From contig NZ_CP059197.1 of NCBI RefSeq assembly GCF_014251735.1, positions 362,501 through 426,500 on the forward strand: 64,000 nucleotides of DNA, read 5' to 3'. Source of the stretch: Blattabacterium cuenoti. GTDB lineage: Bacteria; Bacteroidota; Bacteroidia; Flavobacteriales; Blattabacteriaceae. The translations under genes and the position numbers were made by a program. The notes below the pieces were generated by a model. That model had not been told where the DNA came from and did no database searches. It saw only the letters and a list, made by a program, of their open reading frames with translations. Shown one piece after another: positions 22,537 through 33,965 of this stretch. Each line of letters starts with the position of its first letter. The first letter of the stretch is position 1.

Positions 22537-23493
22537 ATGATAAAAAGAATATTAATTTTAGATAAAGATCATCCTTACATCATATACAAATTAAGAAAAG
22601 AGGGATTTATTTGCGACGAAAATTATTTTGATCCTATAGAAGAAATTACAAAAATTATCTCCCTATATGATGGAATCATTTTAAGAAGTAGATTAAAAAT
22701 AAATAAAAACTTGCTCAAAGAAGCAAAAAAATTAAAATTTATAGCTCGTATCGGATCTGGAGTAGAAAATATAGATAAAGATTATGCTTATAAAAAGAAG
22801 ATCATCTTGATTTCTACTCCAGAAGGAAATAAAGATGCAGTGGCCGAACATGCCATAGCTATGCTTTTATCTATAATGAATCATCTTTTTATTTCTAACC
22901 AAGAAATCAGAAAAGGCAAATGGAATAGAGAACCTAATAGAGGAAGAGAAATTAAGGGAAAAACTATAGGAATTATTGGATATGGAAATACTGGAAAAGC
23001 TTTTGCTAAAAAACTTTCAGGATTCGAAGCTACAATATTATGTTATGACATTTTACCTAAAGTCGGAGATATTTATGCACAACAAGTAGACATGAAAACG
23101 ATTTTTATGAAATCAGATATAATTAGTTTACACGTTCCTTACACACGAAAAACTAAAGGAATGATTAACGAAGATTTTATAAAAAATTTCAGTAAACCTT
23201 TTTATTTTATTAACACATCTCGTGGAGGATGTGTCCTTACTGATCATTTAGTACAAGCGTTAAAAAATGGAAAAATATATGGAGCATGCTTAGATGTGAT
23301 AGAATACGAAAGATGTTCTTTTGAAAATTTTTTTCATCATCGAAAACTCCCAAAAAATTTTTTTGATCTTATTCATTCTAAAAAAGTTATTATGACACCG
23401 CATATAGCTGGATGGACCAAAGAATCAAAATATAAAATGGCTCAAATCATTGTAAAAAAAATTCTTTCTATAAATAAAAAAACTCTATGTTAA
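22537..23493 (+). CDS. serA: D-3-phosphoglycerate dehydrogenase-type 2-hydroxyacid dehydrogenase
   Basis: Probably oxidises 3-phosphoglycerate to 3-phosphohydroxypyruvate, the first step to serine. Length is 318 aa: a catalytic domain with ARIGSGVENID near 70-80 (catalytic Arg region), and the NAD-binding motif GIIGYGNTGKAF near 147-158. The catalytic His is in TPHIAGWT near 288-295. There is no C-terminal ACT domain, so no serine feedback by that route. Serine would feed CysE in the adjacent cysteine operon. The substrate is inferred from similarity and could be another 2-hydroxyacid. Overlaps the permease gene by 4 nt tail to tail. Confidence 0.85.
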   Translation: MIKRILILDKDHPYIIYKLRKEGFICDENYFDPIEEITKIISLYDGIILRSRLKINKNLLKEAKKLKFIARIGSGVENIDKDYAYKKKIILISTPEGNKDAVAEHAIAMLLSIMNHLFISNQEIRKGKWNREPNRGREIKGKTIGIIGYGNTGKAFAKKLSGFEATILCYDILPKVGDIYAQQVDMKTIFMKSDIISLHVPYTRKTKGMINEDFIKNFSKPFYFINTSRGGCVLTDHLVQALKNGKIYGACLDVIEYERCSFENFFHHRKLPKNFFDLIHSKKVIMTPHIAGWTKESKYKMAQIIVKKILSINKKTLC

Positions 23494-24965
23494 ATATTAA
23501 AAAAACAATTATATAAAACTCTAATACTCCAAATTATAACTAAAAATCCTATAGAAAAACACATAATTTTTAAAGGAAGTTTTCCTGATATTTTTGCAGC
23601 TAAAGGAGCTGCAAAAAAACCACCGAAAACTAATCCAAAAACGATTTTCCAATAATGAATTCCTAATAAAGAAAAAAAAGTTAATGTACTAGAAAGAGTT
23701 ACAAAAAATTCAGATAAACTTACCGATCCTATTACATATTTTGGGGTTCTTCCCTTAGATATTAACGTACTAGTAACAAATGGACCCCATCCACCGCCTA
23801 CAAAAGAATCCAAAAAACCTCCAAATCCAGCTAACCATCCTATTCTCTTCGCCTTTATAGGTTTTTTACTCCATGCAGTTAACAATATTCTAATACCCAA
23901 AAAAAAAGTGTAAAAAGCTAACATAGGTTTTATATAAAAAGCATAACTATCTCCATATTTAGATAATAAAAAAGCTCCAAGAATAGAACCTATAACTCCT
24001 GGAACTAATAATATTTTGAACAGCTTTTTATTTACGTTTCCCATTTTATAATGACTTAATCCAGAAATTCCACTAGAAAATATTTCTGCGGTATGTATAC
24101 TAGCGCTAATTGATGAAAGAGGAATACCTAAGGTCAGCAATATTGTGGTACAAGTAAGCCCATATCCCATCCCTATAGCCCCGTCAACAAGTTGAGCAAA
24201 AAATCCAGTAACCACCAGATATAAAAAACTGATATCAAGATGATAAATCAATTTTTGATAGAAAACTTTTATATCTATATGTGATAAAAATAAGCAACAC
24301 ATTGTTACTAATGGAACAATTAAAAAAAATTTTAAAAGATTCTTTTTAAATCTTTTTTTATGTTGTTCCGGATAAAATGGATTTTTTAACCATTTTATAG
24401 TTAATGTATTAAGAACTTCTACTTTGTAATCAAAATCTCCTTTTAATTTTTTTCGTATTTTATGCATATTTATCAATACTTCATCCAATTCATAAGGAAT
24501 AACCTCTGTAAAAATCTCTTTTAAACGTTTAGCTATGGTGGGAGATTTCCCATTAGTAGATATGGCTATTTTCAAGTTCCCTTTTTGTACTATAGATCCA
24601 AGATAAAAATCACAAAGTTCCGGTACATCCGATACATTTACCAATTTATGCATTTTCTTTGCATCTTTCTTAATTCTTTTACTAAGCATGGGATCATTTA
24701 CGGCGACAATGATCACATCCATATTTTTTAAATCAGATGATCCATATACTTTTTTAGTTAATCTTATAGAATTAAATATTTTAGCTAATTCATAAACTTT
24801 TTGATCAATATGATAAGCTATTAAATTTACTTCTGTATCAGGATTATTTCGTAATACAGTTTTTAATTTTTCCAAAGCTGTTTTTCCACCACCAATAATT
24901 AAAAGGGAAAGTCTTTCTAATTGTAAAAATATAGGAAAAAGTCTATTATTTTCTTTCTTTATCAT
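23490..24965 (-). CDS. Precorrin-2 dehydrogenase (CysG-N/Met8) fused to a TSUP-family permease
   Basis: A two-part protein of 491 aa from the Met at 24965; a start at 24989 would overlap cysI by 13 nt. Residues 1 to about 190 match the siroheme-synthase N-domain: FPIFLQLERLSLLIIGGGKTA is an NAD-binding motif, VAVNDP is near 88, VSDVPELCDFYLGSIV near 111-126 and STNGKSPTIAKRLKE near 135-149. It should oxidise precorrin-2 and insert iron. The rest has about eight membrane spans and TSUP (TauE/SafE) motifs (FFAQLVDGAIGMGYG, GGFLDSFVGGGWGPF). It ends the sulfur operon. The permease may move sulfite or sulfate; direction is unknown. Confidence 0.88.
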   Translation of the reverse strand: MIKKENNRLFPIFLQLERLSLLIIGGGKTALEKLKTVLRNNPDTEVNLIAYHIDQKVYELAKIFNSIRLTKKVYGSSDLKNMDVIIVAVNDPMLSKRIKKDAKKMHKLVNVSDVPELCDFYLGSIVQKGNLKIAISTNGKSPTIAKRLKEIFTEVIPYELDEVLINMHKIRKKLKGDFDYKVEVLNTLTIKWLKNPFYPEQHKKRFKKNLLKFFLIVPLVTMCCLFLSHIDIKVFYQKLIYHLDISFLYLVVTGFFAQLVDGAIGMGYGLTCTTILLTLGIPLSSISASIHTAEIFSSGISGLSHYKMGNVNKKLFKILLVPGVIGSILGAFLLSKYGDSYAFYIKPMLAFYTFFLGIRILLTAWSKKPIKAKRIGWLAGFGGFLDSFVGGGWGPFVTSTLISKGRTPKYVIGSVSLSEFFVTLSSTLTFFSLLGIHYWKIVFGLVFGGFFAAPLAAKISGKLPLKIMCFSIGFLVIIWSIRVLYNCFFNI

Positions 24966-24976
24966 TATGAGATATA

Positions 24977-26662
24977 TTAAACAATCCATTGTTTTCTAAG
25001 AGAAAAATTTCCAAAATTTTCTCCTAAAAATCTTTCTTTTCGAAAAACACCAAAAATTAGATCAAGTTCCTTCAAAATAGAAGATTCATCCATATTTTTT
25101 TTATAAAGTTTATTCAAACGTGTCCCCTCCTTATTCGCTCCTAAATATAGATTATATAACCCATAAGAAACTCCTATCAAACCAATTTCCGCTAGATAAG
25201 GACGTGAGCATCCATTAGGACATCCAGTCATACGAATAATAATCTCTTCTTTTTCCAATTGATATTTTTTTAAAATATGCTCAATTTTGTCTATTAAATT
25301 AGGTAAATAACGTTGTCCTTCCGCCAAAGCTAAAGGACATGTATTAAAAGCTACACAGGCCATAGAGTTCTTTCTTATAGAGGATATATTTTTCATATAA
25401 TTGATAATTCCATATTCCTCAAGAATAGATTGTATTTTTTCTTTATGATTGACCTGAATATCAGTTAATGTTATATTCTGATTACAAGTGAATAAAAAAT
25501 TACATATTTGAAGTTCTGCTATTTTTAACAAAGCAGATTTTAAATGAACAGATTTTCTATCAAAAACTAATCCGTTTTCTATAAAAAAAGTATAATTCCA
25601 TAATTTTTTATTGTTCTGAATCCAACAAAAATAATCCGTTCTTTCTGTAAAAACAAAAGGATGTTCTTTTTCTAAAGAGAAACTAATTCTTTTTTCCAGT
25701 TCTTTTTTAAACCAATCAATTCCATAATTATCTATAGTGTATTTTAAACGAGCCAATTTTCGATCCTTTCTATTTCCATAATCACGTTGAATTGTCAATA
25801 TCTCGTATACTATTTTTAATGTTTTTTCTTCCGAATCTGAAAATCCAATTACCGTACCTAATCTAGAATAAGTTTTAGGATTACCATGTGTAGTAGATAA
25901 ACCCCCTCCTACTGATATATTAAATCCTTTTAATTGATAATTAAAAGGATCTATAATAGCAATTAAACCTATGTCATTAGCAAAAACGTCTACATCATTA
26001 TTAGGAGGAACAGCTATAGCTATCTTAAATTTTCTAGGTAAATAATTTTCTTTATAAAGAGGCTCTTTATTTTCTTTTTCCAGAATTTTTTCTTCATCTA
26101 ACCAAATTTCATAATAAGCCCTTGTTTTTGGAAGTAACATTTTACTAATTTTAGAAGCATAATCATATATTTCTTCATAAGAATGTTTTCCCACATATGT
26201 ACTGCATATTACATTTCTATTAACATCACCACAAGTAGCTATAGAATCCAATTTAGAAAGATTAAAAGATTGAATAGTAGGTTTTATTTTAGATTTAATC
26301 AATCCATGCAATTGAACAGTTTGTCTAGTCGTTATTTTAATTACTCCTGTTGAATTTTTTTCTGAAATCTGATGGATAGCTATCCATTGTTTTGAATTAA
26401 TAAGACCTCCTGGAATTCGTAAACGAATCATAAAAGAATATAAACGATCTAATTTTTTCTTAGAACGTTCTTCTCTTATATCTCTATCATCTTGTTGATA
26501 TAATCCATGAAATTTTACAACAATTTGATCTTTATCATAAAAACCACCAAACAGTTCCTCTTTCAAGCTGTCTACAATAGACCCACGAAGTCCTTTGCTT
26601 TCTTTTTTTATTTTTTCCTCTACCGTTGTCATTTTTTTTTTATAATCACGATCTTTTATCAT
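24977..26662 (-). CDS. cysI: Sulfite reductase, hemoprotein subunit
   Basis: Reduces sulfite to sulfide with six electrons from CysJ, using coupled siroheme and [4Fe-4S]. Length is 561 aa (E. coli 570). Cluster ligands are visible near the C-terminus as CVAFNTC and GCPNGCSRPYLAEIG (about residues 430-490). RIPGGLINSKQW and TTRQTVQLHG in the N-terminal third are siroheme/substrate-pocket motifs. Alternative start Met is at residue 11. It lies 29 nt after cysJ and overlaps or nearly touches the fused siroheme-synthase gene, so the enzyme and its cofactor maturation are made together. Confidence 0.96.
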   Translation of the reverse strand: MIKDRDYKKKMTTVEEKIKKESKGLRGSIVDSLKEELFGGFYDKDQIVVKFHGLYQQDDRDIREERSKKKLDRLYSFMIRLRIPGGLINSKQWIAIHQISEKNSTGVIKITTRQTVQLHGLIKSKIKPTIQSFNLSKLDSIATCGDVNRNVICSTYVGKHSYEEIYDYASKISKMLLPKTRAYYEIWLDEEKILEKENKEPLYKENYLPRKFKIAIAVPPNNDVDVFANDIGLIAIIDPFNYQLKGFNISVGGGLSTTHGNPKTYSRLGTVIGFSDSEEKTLKIVYEILTIQRDYGNRKDRKLARLKYTIDNYGIDWFKKELEKRISFSLEKEHPFVFTERTDYFCWIQNNKKLWNYTFFIENGLVFDRKSVHLKSALLKIAELQICNFLFTCNQNITLTDIQVNHKEKIQSILEEYGIINYMKNISSIRKNSMACVAFNTCPLALAEGQRYLPNLIDKIEHILKKYQLEKEEIIIRMTGCPNGCSRPYLAEIGLIGVSYGLYNLYLGANKEGTRLNKLYKKNMDESSILKELDLIFGVFRKERFLGENFGNFSLRKQWIV

Positions 26663-26691: not shown

Positions 26692-28374
26692 TTAATATAC
26701 ATCTTTCAAATAGCGTCCAGCTTCTTTCATTTTTTTTATAAAAAACTCTGGAGAAGTACGGCCAATTTCTTTTATCACACGATATATCGTATTCTCAACA
26801 TCTATACTCATAGGTGTTTTTTTTCCACAAATGTATACATACGCCCCATTCTCTATCCATGTAAAAAATTCCTGACGATTTTCCCATATTTTATTTTGTA
26901 CATATATTTTTTCTTCTTGATCTCTAGAAAAAGCAAGACTAACACGATGAAGTACTCCATTTTTTTTCCAATTTTGAACTTCTGTTTGATATAAAAAATC
27001 AGAAGCAAAATGCTGATCTCCAAAAAAAAGCCAATTCTTTCCAGAAGCTCCTATTGCTTCTCTTTCATATAAAAATGAACGAAATGGAGCTATCCCTGTT
27101 CCAGGTCCAATAAGAATAATATCTTTGTCTGATTCTGGTAACTTAAATAAGTAATTTTTATGAATAAAAAAAGATAAAATATCACCTTCCTTTAATTTAG
27201 AAAGAAAATCAGAACAATAACCATATTTAATTTTTTCACCTATTTGAAATTGATGACGTGATACTGTAATGTGTATCTCAGAATCATGAACTCTTGGAGA
27301 AGAAGAAATAGAATATAATCTAGGTTTTATAGGATCCATAATTTGAACTAAGTCTTCTGGTTGATTTCGATTTTTCATAGGAAAATTCTTTAAAAGATCA
27401 AAAAGATCCCATTCTTTATCATAAGGAATGTCTTTTTTTACCAACGCTGAATATTTTTTCAATACAATTGTAGACAAATGAAAAATATTTGCTTCTTTTT
27501 TTAAAAAATCAAACATATTTTTCATTTTATTTGAAGTATTATCATTTTTATTTTGAAAAAAATTCATAATCTTTTGTACTTCTTCTGAAGGGTTTTCTGC
27601 TATAATGCCTACCGAATCCCCTGGTTCATAATTGACTTCATCAGGGTTTTTGATTAAAATTTCAATATGATGAATTTCTTTGTTAGAACCTCTTCCTTTA
27701 TCGTTTAAAAGTGTATTAGTTAAAATAGTTCCATAAATTTTTTTTTTTTTCACGTTTTTTTTGATAAATTCTTCCTGAATTTTCCCTTTCTCAAAAAAAT
27801 TTACAATTTTCGTAAACCATTCTTCTGCTTTATCTTCAAAATCTACATCACATTTTTGTAACGGAATTAGTCTAGTAGCTCCCACTTCATGTAAACGTCT
27901 ATCTACATCTTCTCCTGCTTTGCAAAAGAAAGGATAAGAACGATCGCCTAATGCTAATACACTATATTTCATACTATCTAAACGAAGATCTTTCTCTTGA
28001 TGAATAAAATCAAAAAAAGATTTAGCAGATGATGGAGGTTCTCCTTCTCCATGTGTACTAATAATTATGAAAAAATAATTTTCTTTTTTTAAATCAATCA
28101 AACGGTATTGATCTAAACTTATTAATTTTATTTGTAATTTTTTATCTTTAGCTTTCTTAACAAGAGAAAAAGCTAAATTTTTTGCATTTCCGGTTTCTGT
28201 CCCATAAACAAGTGTAATTTTTTCTTTAAACTTTATCAATTTTTTTGAATTTTCATTTGAATTTTCATAGGAAGAAATTATTCCAGATAAAAATCCAGAC
28301 ATCCAAATAATTTCTTCTTTAGAAGAATTTTTTATGAATTCAATGAATGCTTTATTTTTTGATTCAGATAACAT
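26692..28374 (-). CDS. cysJ: Sulfite reductase [NADPH], flavoprotein subunit
   Basis: Passes electrons from NADPH through FAD and FMN to CysI. Length is 560 aa, near E. coli CysJ (599). The domain order is as in the family: an FMN flavodoxin domain near residues 50-200 (VYGTETGNAKNLA near 55, STHGEGEPPSS near 107), an FAD-binding domain with PRLYSISSSP near 353, and an NADP domain with GPGTGIAPFRSFL near 424 and the C-terminal DVY. Position between cobA and cysI fits its role. Confidence 0.95.
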   Translation of the reverse strand: MLSESKNKAFIEFIKNSSKEEIIWMSGFLSGIISSYENSNENSKKLIKFKEKITLVYGTETGNAKNLAFSLVKKAKDKKLQIKLISLDQYRLIDLKKENYFFIIISTHGEGEPPSSAKSFFDFIHQEKDLRLDSMKYSVLALGDRSYPFFCKAGEDVDRRLHEVGATRLIPLQKCDVDFEDKAEEWFTKIVNFFEKGKIQEEFIKKNVKKKKIYGTILTNTLLNDKGRGSNKEIHHIEILIKNPDEVNYEPGDSVGIIAENPSEEVQKIMNFFQNKNDNTSNKMKNMFDFLKKEANIFHLSTIVLKKYSALVKKDIPYDKEWDLFDLLKNFPMKNRNQPEDLVQIMDPIKPRLYSISSSPRVHDSEIHITVSRHQFQIGEKIKYGYCSDFLSKLKEGDILSFFIHKNYLFKLPESDKDIILIGPGTGIAPFRSFLYEREAIGASGKNWLFFGDQHFASDFLYQTEVQNWKKNGVLHRVSLAFSRDQEEKIYVQNKIWENRQEFFTWIENGAYVYICGKKTPMSIDVENTIYRVIKEIGRTSPEFFIKKMKEAGRYLKDVY

Positions 28375-28421: not shown

Positions 28422-29234
28422 TTAAGACACAAAATAATTTTTTTTAGGAAAAAAATATAGATCAGAAGTCCATTTAAATTTTCTATGTAAATTGACCGTT
28501 TTTCCTATAATTACTAAAGATGGAGATAAAAATTTTTTTTCTTTTCTTATTAATTCTTTACAATTGTAAAGGGAACTTGTATAGACCTTTTGCATCGGTG
28601 TAGTAGCTTGTTCCACTATTGCTACCAATTTATCTGTATAAATATTTCTTTTATTCATTATCAATTTATCAAAAATATAGTCCAATTTTTGAATACACAT
28701 ATAAAATACTAACGTATCCGAAGTCTTCATAAATTCAATCCATTGATCTTGACGAATAGAGTTTGGATCATGAAGTGTAATAAAACGAACTGAAGAAGCG
28801 TATCCCCTTGCTGTAAGAGGAATCCCTGTGTAAGCAGCAGCACCTACAGCTGCAGTAACTCCTGGAATGATTTCATAAGAAATATCATATTTTTTTAATT
28901 CAATTAATTCATCCATAATATTAGAAAAAATAGAAACATCTCCCCCTTTTAGTCTAACTACATATTTTCCTTGCAAAGCATGATAAATCATAATGTCATT
29001 GATTTTTTTTTGAGTCAGATATAATGGATTCTCATTTCTACTACTACTACAATATGTAGAGCGTTTTCCTACATAAATAATTTTTCTTTTAGAATTTGAA
29101 TATTTTTTTAGTATTTCAGGACTGACAAGACGATCTACTAATATCACTTCGGATTTTCTTAAATGATAAACGGCTTTAATAGTTATCAAATCAGGATCTC
29201 CTGGACCTGCGGAAATAAAAATAACCTTTTTCAT
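28422..29234 (-). CDS. cobA: Uroporphyrinogen-III C-methyltransferase
   Basis: Methylates uroporphyrinogen III at C2 and C7 to precorrin-2 with SAM, the first committed step to siroheme. Length is 270 aa. Family motifs are ISAGPGDPDLITIKA (residues 7-21), LVDRLVSPEIL near 36, VVRLKGGDVSIF near 92-103 and YEIIPGVTAAVGAAAYTGIPLT near 119-140. The dehydrogenase/ferrochelatase step is supplied by the fusion protein at 23490 and the substrate by HemD at 12988, so the siroheme route is complete in this window after hydroxymethylbilane. Confidence 0.95.
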   Translation of the reverse strand: MKKVIFISAGPGDPDLITIKAVYHLRKSEVILVDRLVSPEILKKYSNSKRKIIYVGKRSTYCSSSRNENPLYLTQKKINDIMIYHALQGKYVVRLKGGDVSIFSNIMDELIELKKYDISYEIIPGVTAAVGAAAYTGIPLTARGYASSVRFITLHDPNSIRQDQWIEFMKTSDTLVFYMCIQKLDYIFDKLIMNKRNIYTDKLVAIVEQATTPMQKVYTSSLYNCKELIRKEKKFLSPSLVIIGKTVNLHRKFKWTSDLYFFPKKNYFVS

Positions 29235-29247
29235 TTTTTTTTATGAT

Positions 29248-30162
29248 TTATGAATCAAAAAGATCTTCCACAGATAAATATCTCTCTCCAGTATCATAAT
29301 TAAATGTCAGTATTGTCGAATTTTCAGAAAAATTGGATAATTTTTTCGCAATAGCAGACAATACAGCTCCTGTAGAAATTCCTACCAAAATTCCTTCTTT
29401 CTTTGCCACCTTACGAACATAACTAAATGCTTCTTCTTTAGATACTAAAAAAGTTCCATCTAGTATTTTAATATTTAAAATGGATGGAATAAAACCTGCA
29501 CCTAACCCTTGTAATGCATGAGGATTAGGTGTCCCCCCAAATATTACCGAAGATTCTATAGGTTCTACAGAAAATATCTTTATAGTTGGAAATTTTTTCT
29601 TTAATACTTCTCCTATTCCAGTAATATGTCCTCCAGTTCCTACTCCTGTAATAAAATAATCAATTCCATCAGGAAATGATTCTAAAATTTCCTTAGCCGT
29701 AGTATATTTATGTATATTAGAATTAGAAATATTGTCGAATTGTTTTGGCATCCATGAATTTGGAATAGAATTCACCAACTCTTCCGCTTTTTGAATAGCT
29801 CCCTTCATTCCTTCTTCTCTAGGAGTAAGAACAAATTTTGCTCCATAAACTGAAAAAATTTTTCTTCTTTCAACACTCATAGATTCAGGCATTACTAAAA
29901 TAAGACGATATCCTTTCACAGCAGATACCATTGCCAATCCAACTCCAGTATTTCCAGAAGTAGGCTCAATGATAGTATCTCCATTCTTAAGAATTCCTTT
30001 TTTCTCTGCATCCTCGATCATGGATAATGCTATTCGATCCTTAATGCTTCCTCCTGGATTATTTTTTTCCAGCTTCATCCAAACTTTATGATTTGGATAT
30101 AAACGAAGAAGACATACATGAGGTGTATTTCCAATAGTATGCAAGATACTTTCTGCTTTCAT
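29248..30162 (-). CDS. cysK: Cysteine synthase (O-acetylserine sulfhydrylase)
   Basis: PLP enzyme that replaces the acetyl group of O-acetylserine with sulfide to give cysteine. Length is 304 aa. The PLP lysine lies in [12 protein letters not shown] near residues 34-45, and the substrate loop [12 protein letters not shown] is near 66-77. The PLP phosphate loop [11 protein letters not shown] near 172-182 is intact, and GISTGA is near the C-terminus. cysE is the next gene upstream, 21 nt away, the common pair. CysK and CysM types cannot be separated with certainty by eye. Confidence 0.95.
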
Positions 30163-30183: not shown

Positions 30184-31017
30184 TTATATCATATAGTTAA
30201 TAGGATCGGGAAAAGGATTGTTATTTCGCATCCTTATTTCGCTTTTTTGATAAACTATAGAATATGGAGGGATACTATGTGTGACCCATACATTTCCACC
30301 AATAACACTATCATGTCCAACTATCGTCTCTCCTCCCAATATAGTAGCTCCAGCATAAATAGTAACTTTATCTTCTATAGTAGGATGACGTTTCTTATTT
30401 GCTAATTTTTTATCTACATAAACAGCTCCTAAAGTGACCCCCTGATATATTTTCACTTTATTTCCTATTTTCGTACTAGATCCTATCACTATTCCTGTTC
30501 CATGATCTATCACAAAAGCTTTTCCGATTTCTGCAGCGGCATGAATATCGACACCCGTTTTACTATGAGCATATTCTGTTATTAGTCGAGGGAGAATTGG
30601 AACTTTTAAAATCCACAGTTGATGAGCCATTCTATATAATGCAGTAGCAAAAAATCCGGGATATGACAAATAAATTTCTTCTATTACGGTTGCAGCTGGA
30701 TCAAAATCTAAAATAGCATTAGCATCTGTCACTAATGTTTGATAAATATTAGGAATTTTTTCAAAAAAATTTTTTGTAAATGTTTTTGATTGATTTTCTT
30801 CAAAATTTAATTCTAAAAGAATATGATGCAACTCGTGTTGTAATATTTGATAATTTTTATTTAAAGATTTTCTGTTTTCTAAAATATTCTGATCAGGGGT
30901 AAAAAGTAGATGAAATAAACCTTCTACAAATTTTTCGGACATCTTTTTATGAGGAAAAGGATAAAATCCTTTTTTTTTATTTTCAAACAAATTATTTAAA
31001 AAATCTGAATTAGACAT
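30184..31017 (-). CDS. cysE: Serine O-acetyltransferase
   Basis: Acetylates serine with acetyl-CoA to O-acetylserine. Length is 277 aa. An N-terminal helical region spans about residues 1-150, followed by a left-handed beta-helix of hexapeptide repeats, GVDIHAAAEIGKAFVIDHGTG and GNKVKIYQGVTLGA. The catalytic Asp-His pair is in DHGTG near residue 169 and the loop with GGNVWVTHSIPP is near the C-terminus. The form is the longer EpsC-like type with an N-terminal extension. It feeds CysK directly. Confidence 0.93.
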   Translation of the reverse strand: MSNSDFLNNLFENKKKGFYPFPHKKMSEKFVEGLFHLLFTPDQNILENRKSLNKNYQILQHELHHILLELNFEENQSKTFTKNFFEKIPNIYQTLVTDANAILDFDPAATVIEEIYLSYPGFFATALYRMAHQLWILKVPILPRLITEYAHSKTGVDIHAAAEIGKAFVIDHGTGIVIGSSTKIGNKVKIYQGVTLGAVYVDKKLANKKRHPTIEDKVTIYAGATILGGETIVGHDSVIGGNVWVTHSIPPYSIVYQKSEIRMRNNNPFPDPINYMI

Positions 31018-31037: not shown

Positions 31038-32276
31038 TTACTCGATCATACAAGCGGCTATTGTGGCATAACTCGTTTCATCTATCAAAATAGAAGCTCC
31101 ATTATCTCTTATCTTTTTATAAGAATCAAAAGGAATTGGTTTGGATGTTTTTATTCTCACTTTTACTAAATCATTTAATCCTACATTATCTGGATTTCTC
31201 TCTTTTTGAAAAGTATTCACATTTATGCGATAAATAATATCTGTAATCACAATTGGAATTTGAAAACTGTGAATTTGAAATAAATATCTTTTTTTTCGTT
31301 TCAAACGACTATTCTCCATCCAACAAAGAACAGCATAAAAATCTTGAGAGACCTTAGGTTGATCATCGTCATTCTTTACAAGAATATCACCACGAGAGAT
31401 ATCTATTTGATCTTCTAAATACATAATTATGCTTTGAGGAGCAAATGCTTCTTCAATTCGTTTTCCACCCATTTCCATATACTTTATTTTTGTGTGCAAA
31501 TTAGTGGGATAAACAATGATTTCATCTCCTTTTCTATAAATACCACTGATAATTTTCCCTGCATATCCACGTAAGTAATTATTAAGTTCTCTTGATCGAA
31601 TAATATACTGAATTGGAAATCTAGATGGTTCTAAATGAGGTTCTTTTTGAATCCATATATTTTCTAGCAAGGAAAGAATGCTAGGGCCTCTATACCATTT
31701 CATATTGGAAGATTTATCTACTACATTATCTCCATTTTTTGCACTAATCGGAATTGTTTCTATATTTTTCAAACCGACTCTATGAGCAGTGATTTGATAT
31801 TGACGAATTATATCTTTGTATATTTCATAATCATAACCAATCAAATCCATTTTATTAATAGCTAAAATAATTTTTGGAATATTCAATAATCCGAGAATTA
31901 AAGAATGTCTTTGTATTTGTTCTACTATTCCATAACGAGCATCTACCAATATAATTGCTAAATCTGCGTGAGAAGCACCCGTTACCATATTTCTAGTATA
32001 TTGAAAATGTCCTGGAGTATCTGCTATAATAAATTTTCTTTTAGATGTAGAAAAATATTTATAAGCCACATCAATAGTTATGCCCTGTTCTCTTTCAGCT
32101 CTTAACCCATCTGTTAACAATGATAAATCTATTTGATTTTCATTATCCACATGTTTTTCCGTAATCATAGATAATTGATCTGTCAATACAGAATGACTAT
32201 CATATAATAAACGTCCAATAAGAGTACTCTTTCCATTATCTACACTCCCTGATGTGATGAACCTTAAACTATCCAT
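31038..32276 (-). CDS. cysN: Sulfate adenylyltransferase, GTPase subunit
   Basis: GTP hydrolysis by CysN drives CysD to make adenosine phosphosulfate (APS) from sulfate and ATP. Length is 412 aa, without the C-terminal APS-kinase domain of CysNC fusions. EF-Tu-like motifs are G1 SGSVDNGKSTLIG (residues 9-21), G2 region EQGITIDVAY (63-72), G3 DTPGHFQY and G4 NKMD near residue 146. With no cysC in the operon, sulfate is probably reduced from APS rather than PAPS. It lies 18 nt after cysD. Confidence 0.96.
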   Translation of the reverse strand: MDSLRFITSGSVDNGKSTLIGRLLYDSHSVLTDQLSMITEKHVDNENQIDLSLLTDGLRAEREQGITIDVAYKYFSTSKRKFIIADTPGHFQYTRNMVTGASHADLAIILVDARYGIVEQIQRHSLILGLLNIPKIILAINKMDLIGYDYEIYKDIIRQYQITAHRVGLKNIETIPISAKNGDNVVDKSSNMKWYRGPSILSLLENIWIQKEPHLEPSRFPIQYIIRSRELNNYLRGYAGKIISGIYRKGDEIIVYPTNLHTKIKYMEMGGKRIEEAFAPQSIIMYLEDQIDISRGDILVKNDDDQPKVSQDFYAVLCWMENSRLKRKKRYLFQIHSFQIPIVITDIIYRINVNTFQKERNPDNVGLNDLVKVRIKTSKPIPFDSYKKIRDNGASILIDETSYATIAACMIE

Positions 32277-32294
32277 GAATATATATGTTGTATA

Positions 32295-33203
32295 TTAAAA
32301 ATATCCTTGTTTTTTTCGATCTTCCATAGCAGTATCCGATAGAGAATCATCAATTCTTGTCTGACCTCTTTCACTTATTCTCGTATCTAAAAGTTCTTGA
32401 ATGATTTGTTCTACATTTTTTGCATTTGACTCAATGGCTGCTGTACAAGTCATATCTCCTATAGTACGATACCGTAAGTTTTTTCTACAGATGACTTCAT
32501 CTGGATTAGGTTGAATGAATTTCGATATGGCCATCCATTTTCCTTGAAAATTAAAAGCATCTCTTTGATGTGAAAAATAAATAGAAGGTAATAAAATATC
32601 TTCTTTTTGTATATAATTCCATACATCTAATTCGGTCCAATTACTAATGGGAAAAACACGTATATTTTCTCCATTTCGTATTTTTCCATTGTAAACATTC
32701 CACAATTCAGGTCTTTGTAATTTTGGATCCCAAGATCCAAATTCATTTCGAATGGAAAAAATCCTTTCTTTAGATCTCGCTTTTTCTTCATCCCTGCGTC
32801 CGCCACCAATACATGCATCAAATTGAAATTCTTCAATTGTATCTATAAGTGTATAAGATTGTAAAATATTTCTGTTGGGAAATCTTCCTTTAGGTTCAGA
32901 TAAATTCTTACGTATTATAGTGTCCTCTACTTTACGTACAATAATTTTTTCTTCAATATTTTTCACTAAAAAATCTCTAAAGTCTAATGTTTCAGGAAAA
33001 TTATATCCCGTATCAATGTGTACCAAAGGAAATGGTAACTTTCCTGGTCTAAAAGCTTTTAAAGCTAAATGAACTAATAAAATAGAATCTTTACCTCCTG
33101 AAAATAATAAAGCCGGTCTATCAAATTGTCCTGCTACTTCCCTATAAATATGAATGGTTTCTGATTCTAATTGTTCCAAATAGTTTAAATAATAAGTTTT
33201 CAT
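32295..33203 (-). CDS. cysD: Sulfate adenylyltransferase, catalytic subunit
   Basis: Adenylylates sulfate to APS together with CysN. The family begins near YLNYLEQLESETIHIYREV, so the Met at 33203 (302 aa) fits best; the Met at 33221 adds six residues. The PP-loop motif SGGKDSI lies near residues 34-40, DACIGGGRRDEEKARSKER near 125-143, and FPISNWTELDVWNYI near 190. The C-terminus with TRISERGQTR is typical. It lies 9-27 nt after cysH depending on the start. Confidence 0.96.
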   Translation of the reverse strand: MKTYYLNYLEQLESETIHIYREVAGQFDRPALLFSGGKDSILLVHLALKAFRPGKLPFPLVHIDTGYNFPETLDFRDFLVKNIEEKIIVRKVEDTIIRKNLSEPKGRFPNRNILQSYTLIDTIEEFQFDACIGGGRRDEEKARSKERIFSIRNEFGSWDPKLQRPELWNVYNGKIRNGENIRVFPISNWTELDVWNYIQKEDILLPSIYFSHQRDAFNFQGKWMAISKFIQPNPDEVICRKNLRYRTIGDMTCTAAIESNAKNVEQIIQELLDTRISERGQTRIDDSLSDTAMEDRKKQGYF

Positions 33204-33230
33204 ATGTTCCTTTTGATGCATTTTGTATCA

Positions 33231-33965
33231 TTAATTTCTTATATTTTTTAAGTGTAATCCACACTCTTTCTTTACAGAATTCTCTTCCCACCACCATCGT
33301 CCACTACGATAACTTTCTCCACTTTTAACCGAACGTGTACATGGTGCACATCCTATACTTAAATACCCATTATTATATAAACGATTATAAGGAATGTTAT
33401 ATTTTTTAATAAGTTTTATTATTTGGTCGGACTTCCAATTAAAAAGAGGATGATATTTTATTAATTGATAATTAGAATCCCATTCTAAAAAATTTAAATT
33501 TTTTCTTTCAATAGAATGTTCTGAACGTAATCCAGTAACCCAAATTGCATTTCCTTGCAAAGCCCTTTTTAAGGGTTCTACTTTTCGTAGAAAACAACAT
33601 TTCATTCTATTTTGAACGTTTTCATAAAAAGAATTAGGTCCTTTTTCGGATAAAAATTTTTCTAATTTTTTAGTATCCGGATAATATGCAGAAATGGAAT
33701 AATTGTAAAACTTATTTGTATCTGACCAAACTTGATAAGTTTCTTTAAAAATCCTACCCGTATCTAGGGTGAATATTTTTATAGGAATTTTTCCATTTAG
33801 AATAAAATGAGAAATCAATTGATCTTCAATGTTAAAACTGGTAGAAAAAACTATTCTTTCAGGAAAAATCTCTGAAAGAATTTTTAACTTTTCTTCTATA
33901 GAAAAAGATTCAATTTTTTTAGCAATATCAGACAAACATTTCTCGGATGGATTTCGCAATTTCAT
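33231..33965 (-). CDS. cysH: APS reductase (CysH family, Fe-S type)
   Basis: Reduces activated sulfate to sulfite with thioredoxin or glutaredoxin. Length is 244 aa. The PP-loop region STSFNIEDQL lies near residues 51-60. Two Cys pairs are visible: CC in RMKCCFLRKVEPL near 122-134, and CAPC near 207-210, followed by the catalytic KKECGLHL at the C-terminus. The CC...CxxC set holds a [4Fe-4S] cluster and marks APS rather than PAPS reductases, which agrees with the absence of cysC. It is first in the operon, behind a spacer with inverted repeats. Confidence 0.93.
   Translation of the reverse strand: MKLRNPSEKCLSDIAKKIESFSIEEKLKILSEIFPERIVFSTSFNIEDQLISHFILNGKIPIKIFTLDTGRIFKETYQVWSDTNKFYNYSISAYYPDTKKLEKFLSEKGPNSFYENVQNRMKCCFLRKVEPLKRALQGNAIWVTGLRSEHSIERKNLNFLEWDSNYQLIKYHPLFNWKSDQIIKLIKKYNIPYNRLYNNGYLSIGCAPCTRSVKSGESYRSGRWWWEENSVKKECGLHLKNIRN

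Follow-up and report, generated by a model that had tools for sequence, protein, structure and literature searches.

A single open reading frame in this genome of the cockroach symbiont Blattabacterium cuenoti is a genuine fusion of a siroheme synthase with a membrane permease of the TSUP family, and it stands at the end of a complete assimilatory sulfate operon. We consider it most probable (about 0.7) that its product is a two-job protein of this operon, making siroheme with one half and importing sulfate with the other, and that the halves are joined as an operon economy. In the mechanism we infer, the N-terminal half would oxidise precorrin-2 with NAD+ and insert iron to yield siroheme for CysI, while the C-terminal half would act as a TSUP secondary carrier, bringing sulfate (possibly also sulfite) inward for CysDN and CysH. 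The two would be joined since both belong to the same Bacteroidota operon, by a flexible linker that leaves them able to work apart.

Coordinates refer to the window, that is, the whole 64,000-nucleotide stretch of DNA that was analysed. The fusion gene was delimited from its open reading frame and Pfam matches, and its parts are as follows.

23490..24989, minus strand: fusion gene, siroheme synthase (precorrin-2 dehydrogenase/ferrochelatase)–TauE/SafE TSUP permease
24390..24947, minus strand: siroheme-synthase half, residues 15-200, with a Rossmann NAD-binding domain, Asp121, Asn118, Pro150 and a helical region at 167-202
24240..24389, minus strand: linker plus lead-in helix, about residues 201-250, of which 203-223 are predicted to be disordered and 216-237 form the helix
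23499..24233, minus strand: transport half of the TauE/SafE TSUP type (residues 253-497), built of two inverted repeats and carrying the conserved motif GGGWG at 398-402

The preferred start is the ATG at 24965, which matches the starts of relatives and gives a protein of 491 residues; an ATG at 24989, giving 499 residues, is possible. The first-pass annotation had read here one frame joining a siroheme-synthase domain to a TauE/SafE permease, and Pfam, TIGR01470 and conservation in six Blattabacterium genomes confirm it. All the domain matches lie above their curated cut-offs within the single protein: NAD_binding_7 at residues 20-132 (whole-protein E 1.6e-22; 80.5 bits against 22.1), Sirohm_synth_M at residues 137-158 (E 1.1e-9; 38 bits against 25) and TauE (PF01925) at residues 259-486 (E 4.8e-33; 115 bits against 32.6; covering 2-232 of the 237 profile positions), while TIGR01470 cysG_Nterm reaches 102 bits where 62 are required. 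The whole frame is open in six Blattabacterium genomes, and pairwise dN/dS within the genus is about 0.1-0.2 for the TauE half and about 0.15-0.25 for the CysG_N half. An open frame in six genomes together with low dN/dS in both halves excludes a chance join of two domains.

Residues D121, N118 and P150 of the fusion align with D104, N101 and P133 of CysG and are invariant in 63 full-length fusions; the position of CysG Ser128 is taken by Thr145. The catalytic Asp is D104 in CysG and D144 in Met8p, P133 of CysG forms the tetrapyrrole platform, and the D104A substitution in CysG abolishes both the dehydrogenase and the chelatase activities (PMC7018833). Because the catalytic residues are conserved with respect to CysG, the siroheme-synthase half is expected to be catalytically active, a prediction made from its sequence. 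An AlphaFold2 model built with 63 sequences (mean pLDDT 84.6, pTM 0.59) contains a well-defined Rossmann domain, a linker whose residues 203-223 fall below pLDDT 50, a lead-in helix at 216-237 and a TauE half composed of two repeats, each with a broken re-entrant helix and three long helices; no confident interface between the halves is present in this model. The first-pass count of about eight spans was therefore nearly right, the number standing approximately but the arrangement being one lead-in helix followed by two repeats. Positive charges cluster ahead of helix 216-237 and again within loop 372-382, a distribution that suggests a cytosolic siroheme-synthase half. Foldseek matches the fold to the CysG-B module of 6veb, 1pjq and 3dfz with a probability of 1.00, and for the model as a whole the convincing matches are siroheme synthases only, with 6veb, 1pjq, 3dfz and 1kyq as the best. 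A sequence search with the TauE half gave no solved-structure match. Residues 253-497 are faintly like the undecaprenyl-pyrophosphate phosphatase BacA/UppP (E 0.06 by Foldseek, with a TM-score of 0.55 to the target), and re-entrant repeats are common to both.

The operon runs in the order cysH-cysD-cysN-cysE-cysK-cobA-cysJ-cysI-fusion, tightly packed on the minus strand, with the fusion as the last gene; beyond it lies a convergent gene for a 2-hydroxyacid dehydrogenase (serA-like).

33231..33965, minus strand: cysH, APS/PAPS reductase
32295..33221, minus strand: cysD, sulfate adenylyltransferase small subunit
31038..32276, minus strand: cysN, sulfate adenylyltransferase large subunit
30184..31017, minus strand: cysE, serine acetyltransferase
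29248..30162, minus strand: cysK, PLP-dependent cysteine synthase
28422..29234, minus strand: cobA/cysG-A, uroporphyrinogen-III C-methyltransferase (makes precorrin-2)
26692..28374, minus strand: cysJ, sulfite reductase flavoprotein
24977..26662, minus strand: cysI, sulfite reductase haemoprotein (siroheme user), overlapping the longer fusion start by 13 bases

Precorrin-2, the product of cobA, is the substrate of the fusion's N-terminal half. CysH carries the cysteine motifs KCCFLRK and GCAPCTR, a CC...CxxC pattern typical of iron-sulfur APS reductases. If CysH is of this type, as its sequence suggests, it would explain why APS kinase, called a missing step in the paper on the Blattabacterium Bge genome (PMC2768785), is not needed.

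The genome is a single 642,499-base contig and holds one TauE protein only. Profile searches of it found neither BPD_transp_1, the permease of ABC importers, nor EI24/CysZ, and neither SulP nor CysT was found in four Blattabacterium genomes including this one. The multi-span proteins scanned with Pfam comprised PiT, NhaD, Nramp, SDF, TrkH, MIP, MATE, MarC, TerC, ABC exporters and housekeeping proteins. By this census, which is near-complete but not complete, the genome's only dedicated candidate for a sulfur-oxyanion carrier is the TSUP half. The first-pass statement that the operon has no canonical sulfate permease was thus borne out, and it extends to the whole genome for SulP, the CysTWA ABC components and EI24/CysZ. 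CysP of Bacillus is a sulfate carrier of the PiT type, but we hold the PiT protein unlikely to serve here, as it is present in all 49 Blattabacterium genomes, including the 41 that lack intact cysI, cobA and cysD; a protein resembling CitMHS was rejected as a carrier as well, being NhaD. The Blattabacterium literature that we searched names no sulfate carrier, and the fusion offers one candidate gene for it, linked by the fusion itself to a cofactor enzyme.

The TSUP half probably imports sulfate. TSUP function is not readable from sequence alone (PMC5840216), but there are solid experimental precedents. A Corynebacterium glutamicum mutant in cysZ (Cg3112, DUF81/TSUP) fails to grow on sulfate and sulfite and is rescued at high sulfate (PMC1266029), while the TauE-family protein TK06_RS10770 complements a cysA mutant of E. 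coli, and cofitness with sulfate adenylyltransferase is seen for its relative (PMC11535334). Since sulfate importers of the TSUP family are known experimentally, sulfate uptake is the best reading. The suggestion in the first-pass annotation that the permease is the sulfate or sulfite carrier is accordingly plausible and gains strength from these precedents, from the operon and from the lack of another dedicated candidate in the census, although one Blattabacterium genome described below keeps the operon with no such permease. By setting the permease apart from the canonical CysZ, the same annotation made an exception of what has a precedent, because the Corynebacterium CysZ is itself a TSUP protein (PMC1266029, PMC5840216).

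Comparison across the genus adds several natural dissections of the fusion. Intact cysI, cobA and cysD occur together in 8 of 49 Blattabacterium genomes, six of which have an intact fusion; in the Bge genome (G042) it is split, and in G047 only the enzyme half is left. TauE scores above its cut-off in 7 of the 8 genomes with intact cysI/cobA/cysD versus 1 of the 41 without them (G028), an association (Fisher p 7e-7, uncorrected for the kinship of the genomes) that is partly expected for genes adjoining in one operon and that we regard as supporting, not decisive. G028 (L084 6849-13740) has lost cysD and cobA, its cysJ is split, and cysI has been brought by a deletion into mid-fusion sequence, with the permease frame left open. 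We reject it as a case of TauE serving without the pathway, because it is close to G030 and G005 (dS about 0.2) and the decay of its operon looks recent.

In Bge (L083 12807-14290) the two halves are adjacent open frames of 208 and 282 residues; what breaks the fusion is a single-base frameshift where the linker has nine consecutive A. As a demonstration that the gene has split, this case is weakened, since a frameshift at nine A may be a sequencing error or be bypassed by transcriptional slippage; the genome was sequenced by Sanger plus 454 (PMC2768785), and rescue by slippage has been proposed for Blochmannia and Buchnera (PMC3017870). G047 (L082 13149-13781) keeps the siroheme half alone as a 210-residue frame, with all cys genes open. 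Its permease half has been deleted down to short C-terminal scraps (downstream of 13781; L041 2130-2380), no other TauE and no SulP were found in it, and its CysG_N and cysI diverge no faster than in relatives. Either another sulfate route exists in this genome or the lineage is starting to lose the pathway, and the chief argument against the permease as the sole gate comes from G047. The sampled free-living genomes likewise speak against a sole importer, as SulP is found in 26 of 26, once as a match to a 49-position fragment only. TauE stands alone in G228-type genomes. The halves of the fusion are thus separable in nature.

Beyond Blattabacterium the fusion is widespread, and this genome is one host among many. 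Among 84,980 species genomes scanned, at least 593 candidate fusion loci were confirmed, and at least 79 of the best 80 carry the fusion in one frame. The hosts among these 80 are mostly Bacteroidota and include Chitinophagaceae, Hymenobacter, Rufibacter, Saprospiraceae, Niastella, Chryseobacterium and Flavobacterium cauense; one MAG named Ignavibacteria and one named Thermoanaerobaculia (Acidobacteriota) also appear (L128, L186), through either transfer or a misbinned contig. The genomes sampled with a full fusion are Chryseobacterium (g8), one Flavobacterium-like genome and members of families f17, f18 and f23, and in other Flavobacterium-type genomes the genes are unfused in one operon, TauE-cysH-cysD-cysN-SiR-cobA-CysG_N. 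The first-pass belief that related fusions occur in other flavobacteria is true and understated, the fusion being common in free-living Bacteroidota and reaching far beyond the flavobacteria. Our literature search found no description of a siroheme synthase–TSUP fusion, and we report it as a fused variant of known families.

A short form of about 430 residues occurs in g45 and g34, which belong to the same family as Chryseobacterium (Weeksellaceae), and in G494 (L055-L063, L105). It retains the Rossmann part at about 26-31% identity but has lost the catalytic Asp, Sirohm_synth_M and the helical region, and the gene sits in a cysH-cysD-cysN-short operon. An NIR_SIR enzyme is absent in all seven g45/g34 genomes tested, whereas G494 has NIR_SIR and also a full fusion alongside the short form. 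In the TauE tree the short forms fall at several positions among the full fusions, which points to an enzyme half that has decayed more than once. Close pairs nevertheless show purifying selection on the remnant (dN 0.05/dS 0.68; dN 0.14/dS 1.06), although it has diverged several times further than the permease where the pairs are more distant. The integrity of the enzyme thus tracks the need for siroheme and that of the permease tracks sulfate activation, and something still keeps the dead domain.

True exporters (TauE/SafE) belong to the TSUP family too, and the direction of transport cannot be read from sequence. The membrane half could be an exporter of sulfite or another sulfur anion, a safety valve against toxic sulfite for times when CysH outruns CysI, with the siroheme half keeping CysI charged, in which case each half would serve to limit sulfite. 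The Pfam family is named for sulfite and sulfoacetate exporters, and in 38 of the 79 named loci (the best of at least 593) the gene directly upstream is cysI; the short-form genomes, with cysH, cysD, cysN and a permease but no siroheme sulfite reductase, might accumulate sulfite, and G047 lives without the TSUP permease. Yet the operon holds assimilatory genes only, sulfonate-degradation genes being absent from it, Blattabacterium has yielded no other sulfate importer, and both of the closest cys-linked experimental precedents import sulfate (PMC1266029, PMC11535334). The neighbourhood fits uptake too: a TonB-dependent receptor or DUF2490 protein lies within 3 kb on the same strand in 55 of these 79 loci, and in none of them did the opposite strand show a TonB receptor. 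TonB-dependent receptors are importers and abundant in Bacteroidota, so that such neighbours favour inward transport with the reservation that they are common there anyway. Across L067-L070 and L108-L187 such a receptor, of about 958 residues in Chryseobacterium, or a DUF2490 protein often shares the operon with the fusion. On balance we regard export as unlikely.

The join of the two halves is best read as operon economy, given the disordered linker, the two frames of Bge, the enzyme without a permease in G047 and the short forms with a dead enzyme. STAS or RCK domains regulate other carriers, and the N-terminal half might similarly be kept as a sensor, a Rossmann/tetrapyrrole-binding domain that makes the gating of sulfate uptake depend on the state of NAD(H) or siroheme. 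The strongest hint of a regulatory role is the short form of g45 and g34, where the selected remnant persists with neither catalytic Asp nor helical domain in genomes that lack siroheme sulfite reductase; the scatter of short forms over the TauE tree also counts for it. Against gating stand the faster evolution of the remnant in more distant pairs, the two separate frames of Bge, the solitary TauE of G228-type genomes, and the model's disordered linker and lack of a confident interface. We judge such a sensor to be improbable as the reason for the fusion; that the siroheme-synthase domain doubles as a cytosolic NAD-binding regulator of sulfate uptake, or serves in some lineages as nothing else, and would thus be a so far unrecognised sensor of enzyme origin on a TSUP carrier, we put forward tentatively and think unlikely. 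The first-pass idea that the fusion brings siroheme maturation to the membrane beside the substrate gate, with cofactor delivery, sulfite reductase and sulfate entry as one assembly, could draw on the retention of the fusion in six Blattabacterium despite genome reduction and in many free-living Bacteroidota, but the linker, Bge, G047, the short forms and the unfused Flavobacterium-type operon speak against it, and this least supported purpose of the join is very improbable. The natural dissections (Bge, G047 and the Weeksellaceae short forms) make operon economy versus regulatory coupling directly testable.

The fusion resembles several known systems in part. With CysG-B, Met8p and SirC its enzyme half shares the Rossmann fold, the Sirohm_synth_M segment, the catalytic Asp, Asn118 and the platform Pro150. 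In contrast to CysG, its fusion partner is a membrane carrier and not a SAM methyltransferase (cobA being a separate gene here), Thr145 replaces Ser128, and a CysG_dimeriser Pfam match is absent. CysZ of C. glutamicum likewise belongs to the TSUP family, and its gene closes an assimilatory sulfate operon (cysIXHDNYZ) with a putative siroheme gene, cysY, as neighbour (PMC1266029); that CysZ, likened by description, differs in being stand-alone and from another phylum, and the adjoining cysY is a SirB-like chelatase, not CysG-B. TK06_RS10770 and Ac3H11_578 are likewise TauE-family proteins linked to sulfate assimilation genes (PMC11535334), but they are stand-alone and proteobacterial, and are again likened by description. 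Free-living fusions often adjoin a TonB-dependent receptor or DUF2490, and the sampled genomes hold SulP, whereas Blattabacterium has no SulP and its fusion adjoins no such receptor. The full fusions of Cnuella takakiae, Rufibacter, Hymenobacter, Niastella, Chryseobacterium and Flavobacterium cauense share its domain order at about 40-58% identity; free-living full fusions are mostly about 480-590 residues long, and many have the same cysI neighbourhood.
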